A stretch of 35,919 bases of DNA, taken from NCBI GenBank assembly GCA_963205465.1, contig CAUJKG010000296.1:1-35919 (forward strand), in the 5' to 3' direction. The stretch is from Pseudomonadota bacterium (GTDB taxonomy: Bacteria; Pseudomonadota; Alphaproteobacteria; Rhizobiales; Xanthobacteraceae). Below the pieces are notes generated by a model. That model ran no database searches and was not told the DNA's origin. It was given only the letters and a program-made list of their open reading frames with translations. A program made the translations under genes and the position numbers. Positions 9,378 through 14,974 of the stretch are shown here, one piece after another (the first letter of the stretch is position 1; each line of letters opens with the position of its first letter).

Positions 9378-9656
9378 TCAGTGTCGCGCTTCCAGCACCT
9401 CATATGTGTCCTGCGCGGCCCTGGCGTCACCCCGGCGCGGCAATATGCCGGTGACCTTTAAGACGCGCACGCGGGCAGGAAGCGCAAGTGTCAGGATGTC
9501 GCCGGGCTTGATGGCGCGGCCGGGCTGCCCGGCACGTTCGCCGTTGACGCGGACATGGCCCGCGGAGACGAGTGCTGCCGCGAGCGTCCGGGTTTTCACG
9601 ATTCGAGCGTGCCAGATCCAGCGGTCGATCCGCTGGGAGTTCTGGCTTGCGCTCAA
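9378..9656 (-). CDS. S4 domain RNA-binding protein (HslR-like)
   Basis: [49 protein letters not shown]. Start overlaps the helicase stop by 4 bp. Confidence 0.9.
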
Positions 9657-12600
9657 CCCTTGTCCTTCTTGTCCGCCTCCATGCGCTCTTTCAGCGCAAG
9701 CAGTGAAGCGAAGGGAGAGTTCGGATCCAGCGGTTTCTCCCGGCGTTCCGGCCGCGGCTTGAACTGGCTTGCGTCCTTGCGGGGCGCGCGCTCGTGACGA
9801 TGTTCCTGGCGGTCCTTGTGACGATCCTTGTTATGATCCTTGCCGCGCTTGTCGCGGCGCGGACGCTCGCGTGTTTTTTCGCCTTCCGCCGGAGTTGCGC
9901 CGTCCGCTTTCGCTTCGGCGCGTTTCTGCGGCCGCTTATGTTCGGGCTTGCGGTCGGGACGCGGACGTCCCGGACGCCAGACCTCGATCATTGCAGGTTC
10001 GGCGGATACGGGCGCGGCGGTTGGTTCCGCATCGGCAACCGGCTCCGCATCTGCGGAAATCGCGGGGGCGGCATGCGCTACGGGATCGCCTTCGGATTGC
10101 GGCGGCGTCACTTCAGCGGAAGCCGTAACCGCATCTTCTGCGACCGCGTTTTCCGCGTCCGGCGTTGCTTCGACGGCAGCTTCCGCAACCTGGACGGTCG
10201 GGGTTTCTGCCGGCGTTTCGACCGGCGCGGGGCGGCGATCCATCCGATAGCCGAGCGCTTTCAGGATGGATGCGAAGTCTTCGCCCGCGCAGCCGACCAG
10301 CGAGGTCATGCCGACGGAAACGGTGAAGCCAAAGCCGTCGATCGCGCCTTGCGGCTTCTCGCCGGGCGAGCCCGGCTTCCAGGCGATCGCTGGGCGAATG
10401 AGGTCGGCGAGACGCTCGAGGATATCGACGCGCACCGCGCGCGTACCGGCGACGCGATAGCCGGCCGCGCGATAGAGCGACTTCTGGATTTCGCGATCGT
10501 TCGGAATCGAGGTGCGGCCGGAGGAGGCGAGCGAGGGCAATTCGCTCATGCCCTTCTGCGAAAGGCCGCCATGCTTGAGCGCCCACAACAAGAGCGCCAG
10601 TTGGCGCGGCGCGGGCTTCAGGAGGGCGGGAATATAGATGTGGTAGGCGCCGAAACGGATGCCGTATTTGCGGAGCTGCCCGCGCGCTTCCTGATCGAGT
10701 CCCTTCACTTCGTCGGCGACATTGACGCGGTCGAGCACGCCGAGCGCTTCGACGAGCTGGAAGGCGACGCCGCGGGCCATGCCGTTCACGTCTTCGGCTT
10801 TGGCAAGCGCATTCAGCGGCCCGAGCAGTTTCTCGATATGTGCTTCGATCCAGCGGTCGATCCGCGCCGCGACTTTGTCGCGCGCCGGACCGGTGAGCTG
10901 CTCGTCGGCGATAAGGTGCGTGCGCGGTTTCAGCGCAACGTCGCCTGCGATCAGACGCGCGACCGGCTCGCCTTTCCAGCGCAACAGGCCATCGTTGGCG
11001 AGCACGATCCTGGCGTCGTCCGCCTTGTCGATTTCGTCAGCGCGTTTTTCGATCTCGCCGGCGAGCGCCTTCTGTGCTGCGGCCCTCAGCGCCTTTGCAT
11101 CGGGCGAACTGCCGGAAGCATCGGCGACAAACTCAAAACCCTGCAAGCGTCCGATCACGTGGCCTTCCACGATCACTTCGCCGCTTTCCTTAATTTCAGT
11201 CTCCAAGCGCGTATTCTCTCTCAGGCGCCGCATCAGCACGCTGGTGCGGCGGTCAACGAAGCGTTGGGTAAGGCGTTCATGCAGCGCGTCGGAGAGGCGG
11301 TCTTCGACCGCGCGCGTGATGCCTTGCCAGTGTTCAGGGTCGCGTAACCAGTCGGAGCGGTTGGCTGCGAAGGTCCAGGTACGCACTTGCGCGATGCGGT
11401 TTGAAAGCGTGTCGATATCGCCTTCAGGCCGGTCGGCAAGGGCCACCTGTTCGGCGATCCAGTCGGCGGGGATGGTACCCTCCCGCATCAAAAATCCATA
11501 GAGGGTGAACACCAATTCCGAATGTGCCGCAGGCGATACTTTTCGATAGTCGGGAATTTGACACACCTGCCAGAGGCGGCGGATCGCCTCCGGCGTGCGG
11601 GCCATGGACCGGACGTCGGAATCGCGCGTGGCGCGCTCCAGAATCTGCAGATCATCCGCAACCGGCGCGCGCGTAAGGCCTTCCTCGCGCGGGATGACGG
11701 CCAGGCTCGCCTCGAGAGCGGCCAGCGAGGAAAAATCGAGTTCATGGTTGCGCCACTGCAACACTTTGACGGGCTCAAAAGTGTGGGTCTCAAGCCGCTC
11801 GACCAGATCCGTCTCGAACGGGCGGCAGCGGCCGGTAGTGCCGAAGGTGCCGTCGCGTTGCGCGCGGCCGGCACGTCCCGCGATCTGCGCCATTTCGGCC
11901 GCGGATAATTGCCGGAACTGATAGCCGTCGAATTTCCGGTCGGAGGCGAAAGCGACGTGATCTACGTCAAGGTTCAGTCCCATGCCGATGGCATCGGTCG
12001 CGACCAGATAGTCGACGTCGCCGGATTGAAAGATTTCCACCTGCGCATTGCGGGTACGCGGCGAAAGTGCGCCGAGCACGACCGCAGCACCGCCGGTCTG
12101 GCGGCGGATCAGTTCGGCGATGGCGTAAACTTCGTCGGCGGAGAAGGCGACGATCGCCGAGCGGCGCGGCAGGCGCGTGAGTTTTTTCTCGCCGGCAAAG
12201 GTCAGCATCGAAAGCCGCGGCCGCTGGATCACGTCCATGCCGGGCAGGAGCTTCGTCAGAATTCCGCGCACGGTCGCGGCCCCGAGCAGCCAGGTTTCTT
12301 CGCGCCCGCGCAGGTTCAGCACGCGATCAGTGAAAAGATGGCCGCGCTCGAAATCTGCCGCGAGTTGCACTTCGTCGACCGCGATGAAGGCGACATCGAG
12401 ATCCTGCGGCATGGCTTCGACGGTCGAAACCCAGTAGCGCGGGTTCTTCGGAACGATGCGCTCTTCGCCGGTGATCAGCGCGACGTTTTCTTTGCCGACG
12501 CGTTCGACGCAGCGTTGATAGACCTCGCGCGCGAGCAGTCGCAGCGGCAGACCGATCAGCCCGCTCGAATGCGCGAGCATGCGATCGATGGCGAGATGCG

Positions 12601-12691
12601 TTTTGCCGGTGTTGGTCGGCCCTAACACCGCGGTGACGCCGCGCCCGCGGCGCGATGGATCGGAGAAAGACTTCGGAGACGTTTTCAGCAA
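9653..12691 (-). CDS. Suv3/DEAD-DEAH-like helicase with long charged disordered C-terminus
   Basis: Walker A GPTNTGKTHLAI, DEVQ box VDEVQLAADFERG, motif VI QIAGRAGRAQRDGTFG; C-terminal Ala/Glu-rich then Lys/Arg/His-rich tail. Confidence 0.92.
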   Translation of the reverse strand: MLKTSPKSFSDPSRRGRGVTAVLGPTNTGKTHLAIDRMLAHSSGLIGLPLRLLAREVYQRCVERVGKENVALITGEERIVPKNPRYWVSTVEAMPQDLDVAFIAVDEVQLAADFERGHLFTDRVLNLRGREETWLLGAATVRGILTKLLPGMDVIQRPRLSMLTFAGEKKLTRLPRRSAIVAFSADEVYAIAELIRRQTGGAAVVLGALSPRTRNAQVEIFQSGDVDYLVATDAIGMGLNLDVDHVAFASDRKFDGYQFRQLSAAEMAQIAGRAGRAQRDGTFGTTGRCRPFETDLVERLETHTFEPVKVLQWRNHELDFSSLAALEASLAVIPREEGLTRAPVADDLQILERATRDSDVRSMARTPEAIRRLWQVCQIPDYRKVSPAAHSELVFTLYGFLMREGTIPADWIAEQVALADRPEGDIDTLSNRIAQVRTWTFAANRSDWLRDPEHWQGITRAVEDRLSDALHERLTQRFVDRRTSVLMRRLRENTRLETEIKESGEVIVEGHVIGRLQGFEFVADASGSSPDAKALRAAAQKALAGEIEKRADEIDKADDARIVLANDGLLRWKGEPVARLIAGDVALKPRTHLIADEQLTGPARDKVAARIDRWIEAHIEKLLGPLNALAKAEDVNGMARGVAFQLVEALGVLDRVNVADEVKGLDQEARGQLRKYGIRFGAYHIYIPALLKPAPRQLALLLWALKHGGLSQKGMSELPSLASSGRTSIPNDREIQKSLYRAAGYRVAGTRAVRVDILERLADLIRPAIAWKPGSPGEKPQGAIDGFGFTVSVGMTSLVGCAGEDFASILKALGYRMDRRPAPVETPAETPTVQVAEAAVEATPDAENAVAEDAVTASAEVTPPQSEGDPVAHAAPAISADAEPVADAEPTAAPVSAEPAMIEVWRPGRPRPDRKPEHKRPQKRAEAKADGATPAEGEKTRERPRRDKRGKDHNKDRHKDRQEHRHERAPRKDASQFKPRPERREKPLDPNSPFASLLALKERMEADKKDKG

Positions 12692-12761
12692 GGCGTTGGG
12701 CCTGAATTCCTACGCAAGATGTACCGTTTCGTTACAAGTTGAAGCGATTTTTCCGCACTCC

Positions 12762-12810
12762 GTTAAGAATTGGAACGCGCCTGGAACGAATCGCGCCCGA
12801 ATCACTGACT
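12762..12810. repeat. Copy 1 of ~49 bp direct repeat (GAAC-N7-GAAC plus GANTC sites)
   Basis: gttaagaattggaacgcgcctggaacgaatcgcgcccgaatcactgact; about 6 mismatches to the copy at 13016-13064. Confidence 0.85.
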
Positions 12811-13015
12811 ACGCTTGGTTTCCGGCTTCGTTCACGCTGCATGTAGTCGCTTCCAGACGATCTGCCACAAATTTGCGGATTGATGGAATGGCTTCCGTCA
12901 CGTTCGCTTCGCGATGAGGTTAATTTTCGCGTCGGCACAACGGCGATTCAGCCTTGAGTCTCATGCCTTTGCATTGTCCTCTTTTGCGACAATCTTAATT
13001 CGAATTCGACGCAAA

Positions 13016-13064
13016 GGGTAACAATTGGAACGAGTCTGGAACGAATCGCGTCCGAATCGCTGAC
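13016..13064. repeat. Copy 2 of ~49 bp direct repeat (GAAC-N7-GAAC plus GANTC sites)
   Basis: ggtaacaattggaacgagtctggaacgaatcgcgtccgaatcgctgact. Confidence 0.85.
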
Positions 13065-13199
13065 TCGGGCATGTTTCGAGATTTGTTCTCACCACAGATC
13101 GTGTATCGAATGGCGCCGCGCACCAAATGAGCGCCGCAAAAAATCCATCGCCGGCTGTGGTGGCGAAAAGTCTTTAACGGCGTCTGGTTAGGGCTGCAC

Positions 13200-14000
13200 T
13201 TAGCGGGTGCTGGTGCGGAAGCGCTTGGCTTCCACAACGAAAGTGCCGATCGGAGTGGAGACCGAAGCCTTGATCGGAGCGAGTGCGCGCGTACCGGCCA
13301 CGGGGGCCAGCCACACGAACATGTTTCGGTTCTCAGCCATCTGCTTTATCGCCGCGCCTTCCGGGTGGTGACCCGCGATCGGAACATAACGTACCTGGCA
13401 GACCAGCGTCGGGCCTTGGTATCCATCCGTTTTTGTCGCGGCTTGGTCGGTTTTGAGATAGGACAGCACCAGGTTGAAGCGATAGCGCCCGTCGAAAATC
13501 GGCAGCGTGCGGTTGCAGGATTCGGGGCTGAGCACGTCGCCTTTCGACACCAGCGCCAGCATGGCGCTCATCGGATCGACGACATTGGTGCGCGTCTCGT
13601 TTGTAATCGGAACGCGCTTATTGTCGGGATCACGTTGCGGTGGATCGATCGAATATCCTTTCGCAAACCCGTTGACGACGCTCAGTTCGATTTTCTGCTC
13701 GCGCCGGCTGGTATTGAGAAGGCCAGAAAAAACACTGGCGGTTATGCGATTGCCTTTGAACGTACCGCGCACGCTCATCGAACCCGCTCCCTTCGAAAGC
13801 AAACGGATGAGGCCCGAAGTCTTGCCGCTACCCGACGCGACGAAGCCGGATTCGGTCAACTCGACCGTCACTTCGGCGCGTCCGACCGGGATTCCGGTGA
13901 GGTACACTGAATAGGCAGCGTCCAGCTGGGTAGTCTGGGCGAATGCAACGCTGGTGCTCGCAGCCACAAGCAGGATGGCAAGGGCGGCGATGCGGCGCAT
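13200..14000 (-). CDS. DUF3108 domain-containing protein (periplasmic), paralog A
   Basis: Signal peptide MRRIAALAILLVAASTSVAFAQ; TQLDAAYSVYLTGIPVGRAEVTVEL; NVVDPMSAMLAL; CNRTLPIFDGRYRFNL. Confidence 0.88.
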   Translation of the reverse strand: MRRIAALAILLVAASTSVAFAQTTQLDAAYSVYLTGIPVGRAEVTVELTESGFVASGSGKTSGLIRLLSKGAGSMSVRGTFKGNRITASVFSGLLNTSRREQKIELSVVNGFAKGYSIDPPQRDPDNKRVPITNETRTNVVDPMSAMLALVSKGDVLSPESCNRTLPIFDGRYRFNLVLSYLKTDQAATKTDGYQGPTLVCQVRYVPIAGHHPEGAAIKQMAENRNMFVWLAPVAGTRALAPIKASVSTPIGTFVVEAKRFRTSTR

Positions 14001-14002
14001 CT

Positions 14003-14809
14003 TCAGCGGGGCGTGGTGCGGAAGCGCGTTGCTTCCACCACCATGGTGCCAATGCCGGTCGCGATCGAAACCTTGATCGGCACCAGCACGCGGGTGCCGG
14101 CGACGGGTGCGAGCGACACGAAGAGTTCGCGGTTTTTCGCGAGTTGCTGCACCTGCGGACGATCCGTCCGGTGACCGGCGATCGGAATATAGCGCGCCTG
14201 ACAGACAAGAATCGGACCCTGATAGCCGTCAGTCTTTTTGGGCGCCTGTTCGGTGCGCAGATAGGTCAGTTCGACATCGTAGCGGAAGCGCGCGTCGAAA
14301 ATCGGAATCGTGCGGTTGCAGGATGCGGGGTTCAGCACGTCACCCTGTGTTGCGACGAGCATCAGGCCCGCGCTCAAGGGGTCGACTACATTCGTGCGTG
14401 CGGCCTGTGTGATCGGTACGCGATTGACGTCCAGATCTTTCGGCGGCGGCAGTACCGAAAATTCCTTGGCGAAGCCGTTTTCGACGCTGATCTCGACCTT
14501 CTCGCTGCGCTCGCTGGTATTCGACTGCGTCGAAAATACGCTCGAAATCACCCGGGTGCCCTGGAACGAGCCGCGGACGGTGGAAGTGCCTTCGCCTTTC
14601 GCGATCATCCGCACCAGGCCGGTGAATTTGGCTGTGCCGGCGGCGGCAAAGCCCGCTTCGTTCAGATCGAGGATGACGGCGCCCTGGCCGATGGGGATGC
14701 CCGCAAGGTGGATGGAGTAGGCCGCATCCAGCCTGGTCTGCTGGGCGGACGCACCATAGGTGCTCGCCGCCAGAAGCAGCGCGGCAACGGAGAGGGCGGA
14801 GCGGGGCAT
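14003..14809 (-). CDS. DUF3108 domain-containing protein (periplasmic), paralog B
   Basis: Signal peptide MPRSALSVAALLLAASTYGASAQ; TRLDAAYSIHLAGIPIG; NVVDPLSAGLMLV; CNRTIPIFDARFRYDV. Two bp upstream of paralog A. Confidence 0.88.
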   Translation of the reverse strand: MPRSALSVAALLLAASTYGASAQQTRLDAAYSIHLAGIPIGQGAVILDLNEAGFAAAGTAKFTGLVRMIAKGEGTSTVRGSFQGTRVISSVFSTQSNTSERSEKVEISVENGFAKEFSVLPPPKDLDVNRVPITQAARTNVVDPLSAGLMLVATQGDVLNPASCNRTIPIFDARFRYDVELTYLRTEQAPKKTDGYQGPILVCQARYIPIAGHRTDRPQVQQLAKNRELFVSLAPVAGTRVLVPIKVSIATGIGTMVVEATRFRTTPR

Positions 14810-14974
14810 GGACGAATTTCTTCCCGGTCTTTTGGTCCGAAGGACCGATTCAGTGGGGAGAATCATAGCAAAAACCGTCTGATCCGGGCGGATTCGAAGC
14901 AGTTCCCGGTAATCGAGCAGGTGGGATGGCTTTGCGTCTTAACTGTGGCTCGAAAACTCCGTTCGAGGCTTCGC

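Follow-up and report, generated by a model that had tools for sequence, protein, structure and literature searches.

Twin repeats upstream of a Suv3-like RNA helicase gene belong to a non-coding DNA element conserved among alphaproteobacteria

The window analyzed here is a 35,919-nucleotide stretch of a genome from the family Xanthobacteraceae. It contains an intergenic interval flanked by the 5' end of a Suv3-like RNA helicase gene and the 3' end of a DUF3108 gene (Table 1). Two adjacent DUF3108 genes, about 58% identical, occupy positions 13200-14866, and this tandem gene duplication is present in most of the genus members examined. An earlier note on this DNA had described two similar repeat copies within the interval, and a repeat search of the window and BLAST both recovered them where they had been placed. 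The copies (12764-12833 and 13019-13088) are each 70 nt long, ungapped, and 79% identical, with a start-to-start distance of 255 bp. Their 47-bp cores (12764-12810 and 13019-13065) are 89% identical (E = 1.7e-11, BLAST within the genome), and each copy contains the exact GAAC-N7-GAAC that had been claimed for it. The pair itself is therefore real, but its description as an array of 11-bp units about 49 bp in size needs widening. The unit is larger, with conserved features running from ~12720 to 12877 in unit 1 and from 12974 to ~13132 in unit 2, and the 11-bp register reflects different motifs in a fixed order rather than a simple 11-bp tandem repeat.

No third copy was detected by BLAST in the assembly (3.06 Mb, 86.7% complete), nor by a pattern search of the whole assembly allowing up to three mismatches, for which the control pattern gave zero matches. 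A profile search of the assembly returned the two copies at E values of 6e-21 and 1.5e-20, with the next best match at 0.04. This whole-assembly search indicates that the pair goes beyond chance similarity and that no interspersed repeat is involved in this genome, which removes the uncharacterized interspersed repeat suggested earlier. A chance similarity or a recent function-less interspersed repeat would fit the presence of just two copies in the genome. However, such an origin is refuted by the fixed place, invariant positions, and conservation across the class described below, and its probability is negligible.

Table 1. Features of the helicase upstream region in the window (R1, sequence-only profile)
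Feature	Position	Strand	Evidence or remark
Suv3-like RNA helicase, neighbor conserved with the element	9653-12691	-	DEXQc_Suv3, E 1.6e-24; Helicase_C, E 2.5e-10
Unit 1, helicase-proximal element copy	12720-12880	+	R1 match 12761-12850, E 1.5e-20; genus alignment, 7 species
Unit 1 TTAA	12763-12766	.	17 nt from core GAAC
Unit 1 GAAC-N7-GAAC	12773-12787	+	second GAAC (12784-12787) is the near-invariant core half-site
Unit 1 invariant CGAATCA	12798-12804	-	towards helicase TGATTCG, GcrA/CcrM extended motif; 145/145 units CGAATC[AG]
Unit 1 right-arm GTTC	12830-12833	+	inverted half-site, TTC-N7-GTTC
Unit 1 NrdR-like box pair, 31 bp apart, degenerate	12837-12877	.	CTGCATGTAG 5/6 and CAAATTTGCG 4/6 to CNANATNTNG
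Inter-unit block GATTCAGCCTTGAGTCTCATG, two GANTC sites	12945-12965	.	genus alignment
Dyad TTGTC-N9-GACAA, precedes unit 2	12974-12992	.	counterpart TGTACCGTTTCGTTACA at 12720-12736 precedes unit 1
Unit 2, distal copy, nearest to order-wide consensus	12974-13135	+	R1 match 13018-13105, E 5.7e-21; genus alignment, 7 species
Unit 2 GTAA in place of TTAA	13018-13021
Unit 2 GAAC-N7-GAAC	13028-13042	+	sequence
Unit 2 cluster of four GANTC (CcrM-type) sites	13032-13066	.	GAGTC 13032, GAATC 13043, GAATC 13054, GACTC 13062
Unit 2 invariant CGAATCG	13053-13059	-	towards helicase CGATTCG
Unit 2 right-arm GTTC	13085-13088	+
Unit 2 NrdR-like box pair, 31 bp apart	13092-13132	.	5/6 and 4/6
DUF3108 protein, 3' end bounds intergenic region	13200-14000	-	E 1.2e-20

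On the plus strand, the dyad TTGTC-N9-GACAA lies about 55 bp before the core. The unit has the consensus TTAA-N6-7-GAAC-N7-GAACRAA-N7-CGAATCR..TGA..TTC-N7-GTTC, after which come two palindromes, the CNANATNTNG boxes, separated by 31 bp. Of the 59 units in which TTAA was found, 57 have it at a distance of exactly 17 nt ahead of the core GAAC. CGAATCR is usually followed by CTGACTC, and the right arm TTC-N7-GTTC is the mirror of the left GAAC-N7-GAAC. The upstream GAAC half-site is variable, GAAC-N7-GAAC being complete in 89 of 145 units. The core half-site GAAC and CGAATC are equally invariant: a fuzzy search of the order yielded 154 substitutions, none of them in GAAC or CGAATC, although these make up 10 of the 25 pattern positions and all ten were free to vary. 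CGAATC[AG] was present in 145 of 145 score-selected units, the base after CGAATC always being a purine. Because the model behind these units was seeded with CGAATC-type sequences, the substitution count is the less biased measure. The inter-unit block of the window is strongly conserved in the genus and lies outside the order-wide consensus.

The density of GANTC sites was 3.7 per 90 bp in primary units compared to 0.14 in the flanks, a difference that is partly built into the motif. The four sites of the cluster, in the order listed in Table 1, are kept in 70%, 58%, 100%, and 84% of 185 primary units. A pure GANTC constraint was rejected, since the core admits A alone at the N, and the T of the neighboring site is missing in 39%. 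A mini-ORF (TTG..WNESRPNR-stop) had also been considered, as many core variants are synonymous in its frame. However, its start codon varies (TTG, CTG, GTG, ATG, TCG, or ACG), a TAA stands two codons before it, and several families have lost the stop, so this reading was rejected. An RNA hairpin of GAACRAA with TTYGTTC was rejected as well, since its two sides vary independently and no consensus fold was obtained for the element by RNAalifold. The spacings within the unit are 10-11, 21, and 31 bp. Helical spacing and dyad symmetry, with the absent RNA fold, indicate binding to double-stranded DNA, with the predicted proteins on one face. In one AT-rich genome, the box is the perfect palindrome ACCATATATGGT (L333, 1416-1505), and another AT-rich locus has near-perfect inverted arms, GAACATA..CATGA and TTCATG..TATGTTC (L143, 1501-1569).

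With the 508-bp interval as the BLAST query, matches came from 228 of the 300 family genomes searched, representing 42 of 47 genera; beyond the genus, they were mostly limited to ~40 to 80 bp around the cores, at 76 to 100% identity. In every family locus examined, the core adjoins the 5' end of the helicase gene on the opposite strand, and the other flank is DUF3108 or rpmB where the contig reaches that far. A degenerate 26-nt pattern located the element in 79 of 298 genomes of the order, and all 30 order loci that were read lie upstream of the helicase. Among named genomes, the exact long pattern occurs in Hyphomicrobiales, the matches listed including Bradyrhizobium, Rhodopseudomonas, Nitrobacter, Methylocystis, Bosea, Mesorhizobium, and others. 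Across the order Rhizobiales, the element is placed between the DUF3108 gene and the Suv3-like helicase. For the class, a sample of 114 genomes, one per family, was searched with R1, a sequence-only profile, and the element was found in 16 of them. The strong matches include genomes of 1.4 to 2.0 Mb, and all those with a detectable helicase match lie just upstream of the helicase. The three weakest matches (E of 0.001 to 0.01), away from the helicase, are probably due to chance. In other alphaproteobacterial families, the element also stands upstream of the helicase, including in AT-rich 1.4-Mb genomes, and every primary locus examined with a helicase match has it there, on the opposite strand.

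As judged from these comparisons, the twin repeats are a local instance of a deeply conserved ~100-bp non-coding element. The suggestion of a regulatory element stands, as the element has been kept ahead of orthologous helicases throughout the order and beyond it. We consider it probable that the repeats act as a DNA-level regulatory module of the helicase, whichever protein binds it. On this view, an ancient cis-regulatory module of the Suv3-like helicase gene would be present here twice in tandem, and each unit would bind protein and serve as a promoter module directed towards the helicase. Literature searches on the regulation of the helicase or DUF3108 turned up no account of the element, which appears to be a multi-motif regulatory DNA module.

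The units also occur in tandem and at other sites. At 44 of 85 helicase loci, R1 detected two to four units, with a median spacing of 236 bp (range, 178 to 317). Some genomes of the window's family have a second genomic site of one to five tandem units, located upstream of a small secreted-looking protein (DVPGIEICTVEKTMERRT...). Two such sites (L110, 1440-2602; L111, 2255-3424) consist of five units 243 to 300 bp apart that retain the box pair and have lost the right-arm GTTC. Another second site, seen in one family, has two units between the convergent 3' ends of RNase T2 and PDH E1 (L106, 2523-3179; L107, 2460-2952; L108, 2451-2807), with no gene start nearby. At ~990-1077 on the reverse strand of L295, and likewise in L296, GAACGAATC half-sites recur in both orientations; the L295 site, which comes from another family, lies between the convergent 3' ends of pheT and sdhB (gene names read from sequence). 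The helicases of these two genomes also carry units (L312 and L314). Copies between convergent genes have no obvious gene to regulate, and we counted those at RNase T2/PDH E1 and pheT/sdhB, where no gene starts, against the promoter module described above.

It is mainly these copies that keep two other explanations alive. The first is that the units are tandem small-RNA genes, the conserved block being the promoter and operator of a short non-coding transcript. Tandem duplication is common for small RNAs, and the units, ~236 bp apart and up to five in number, would match such an arrangement, as would their presence where there is no gene to regulate. However, no Rfam match was found in the window at E values up to 5 and no meaningful one in the array loci, the conserved part lacks a consensus structure, and little is conserved from the box pair to the next unit except short motifs. 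We regard small-RNA genes as improbable. The second is a chromosome-maintenance site (methylation-sensing, datA-/DARS-like, or for segregation) that merely lies beside the helicase. There is one main locus per genome with a helically phased GANTC cluster, it occurs between convergent genes elsewhere, and it is usually ori-proximal, ~35 to 610 kb from parS in most complete genomes with both placed. However, the surrounding translation-gene cluster may explain this location, and gene regulation accounts more readily for the element staying strictly linked to the helicase throughout the class. A maintenance site is quite improbable. The origin of replication itself was rejected because parS, a marker of the origin region, is too far away (~35 to 47 kb at the nearest, mostly 250 to 600 kb). 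The helicase and element are 34 to 47 kb from parS in G363, G318, G500, and G441 and roughly 250 to 600 kb in most other genomes.

The earlier note had interpreted the repeats as LexA operators that place the helicase under SOS control. The exact GAAC-N7-GAAC of both window copies resembles the alphaproteobacterial LexA box GTTC-N7-GTTC in its two half-sites 11 bp apart, the right side has the inverted TTC-N7-GTTC, and the arm TTC-N4-TTYGTTC looks like a LexA box, a likeness that is clear in a few AT-rich loci. However, the SOS-type boxes that this genome has next to ssb and dinB (both genes named from their sequence) are of the form GAACAWAACARGAAC, and the element's motif does not match them. 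Compared to the ssb box GAACATAACAAGAAC and the dinB box GAACAAAACAGGAAC, the twin elements GAACGCGCCTGGAAC and GAACGAGTCTGGAAC share just the GAAC halves and lack the A-rich spacer. An A-rich LexA-like box was present in 10 of 145 units, and GAAC-N7-GAAC in 89. In addition, the first half-site is variable, and conservation is centered on the invariant CGAATC, which no LexA box needs, so that the constraint falls outside the LexA core. LexA control of the helicase is therefore very improbable. A remark on an EcfG-type promoter also failed: the element has a GGAAC as does the general-stress promoter GGAAC-N16/17-CGTT, but GGAAC-N16..18-CGTT was found in none of the 145 units.

The invariant core has a closer counterpart in the GcrA/CcrM system. 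GcrA has been reported to activate from methylated TGATTCG, and more broadly from YGAKTCK or YGAKTCG, although in Brevundimonas there is little preference beyond GANTC (PMC7987155). Read on the helicase strand, all 145 units have YGATTCG, which fits the extended motif YGAKTCG, and they share with the GcrA/CcrM promoters of Caulobacter, Brevundimonas, and Brucella a GANTC cluster upstream of a gene. GcrA is encoded in this genome (G000:C350:1787-2260, E = 8.5e-52). Outside the order, the element is at the helicase only where GcrA is clear: it was seen in 10 of 13 helicase-bearing genomes with clear GcrA and in none of the 13 whose GcrA is divergent or missing (Fisher P = 1e-4; 0.003 counting absent only; 0.02 with divergent counted as present). 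This co-occurrence is suggestive of a link to GcrA but is confounded by phylogeny, which both share, so that the observations are not independent. In three GcrA-positive genomes that lack the element (G587, G597, and G603), no YGAKTCG takes its place ahead of the helicase. The GANTC at position 4 is kept in only 58% of units, so it is not a general rule that methylation sites are preserved. The near-invariant GAAC half-site belongs to no GcrA motif, no -10 hexamer close to TATAAT was evident, and no helicase is named in the main text of the GcrA/CcrM regulon literature examined. Known GcrA promoters differ in being defined by the short GANTC motif; a conserved ~100-bp module of several motifs, units in tandem, and GAAC repeats at the flanks are not among their features.

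Alternatively, the core of the same module may be read by another direct-repeat-binding regulator, the GcrA match being coincidental. This possibility, already raised in the earlier note, has survived, given the conservation of the element upstream of orthologous helicases. The 11-bp-phased GAAC/GAACGAATC half-sites are of a kind bound by response regulators and LexA-type proteins, they lie 10 to 11 bp apart on one face and are mirrored by TTC-N7-GTTC, and GAAC is as invariant as CGAATC. The GAACGAATC unit occurs in both orientations at one f35 site, and some genomes have the element at two or more genomic sites, as a very small regulon would. However, there is no candidate protein, and it would have to be an accident that the core matches YGATTCG exactly and that the element co-occurs with clear GcrA. 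We consider another reader of the core somewhat unlikely.

The most likely reading overall is a helicase promoter/operator tied to the GcrA/CcrM cell-cycle system through putative binding proteins. The invariant YGATTCG, in the helicase direction, would be a CcrM-methylated GANTC used by the sigma70-associated activator GcrA, and transcription of the helicase would thereby be coupled to replication and the state of methylation. A second protein may bind at the phased GAAC half-sites and at the inverted TTC-N7-GTTC arm. With GcrA included in this way, a cell-cycle promoter module of the helicase is plausible, and we favor it tentatively.

The palindromic boxes at the end of the unit suggest a further input. 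A second CNANATNTNG was found at 30 to 33 bp in 73 of 110 units (50 at exactly 31 bp), with 0 to 3 at other offsets. This pairing, 31 bp center to center, and the frequent flanking of CNANATNTNG by CAC/GTG resemble the NrdR operator, a tandem of aCaCwAtATaTwGtgt boxes. NrdR works with 15 to 17 bp between the boxes (PMC12051234), which corresponds to 31 to 33 bp center to center. In a related genome (L273), the ribonucleotide reductase promoter carries this palindrome too, partnered at a distance of 32 bp. In contrast to NrdR operators, the element precedes a helicase and not a ribonucleotide reductase gene or the nrdR operon, and its second box and outer bases are weak in many units, including the degenerate, weak boxes of the window. 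The presence of NrdR discriminates nothing, as every one of the 32 genomes tested has it. With its two palindromes separated by three helical turns, the pair would be an NrdR-type operator that adds nucleotide-pool input; involvement of NrdR is possible but doubtful. A still broader proposal seems unlikely as a whole, namely, a previously undescribed, class-wide composite site in which a methylation-sensing core (GAACRAA-N7-CGAATCR) and an NrdR-like nucleotide-pool operator form one ~160-bp module in arrays of two to five. Its role would be replication-coupled control of the RNA helicase or, given the copies between convergent genes, that of a stand-alone chromosome site.

The original observation of the twin repeats was thus correct and is more important than first stated; its reading as an SOS element finds no support. 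Should GcrA be what recognizes the element, its conservation as a target would far exceed that of the GcrA regulons described to date, which are rewired (PMC7987155). Non-coding DNA under such constraint is rare in bacteria: ten core positions are essentially fixed across the order, and the element is recognizable even in AT-rich reduced genomes. The Suv3-like helicase has, to our knowledge, a poorly understood role in bacteria. The element would mark a regulatory input to this helicase, and it offers a ready test of control by GcrA/CcrM, NrdR, or another factor.
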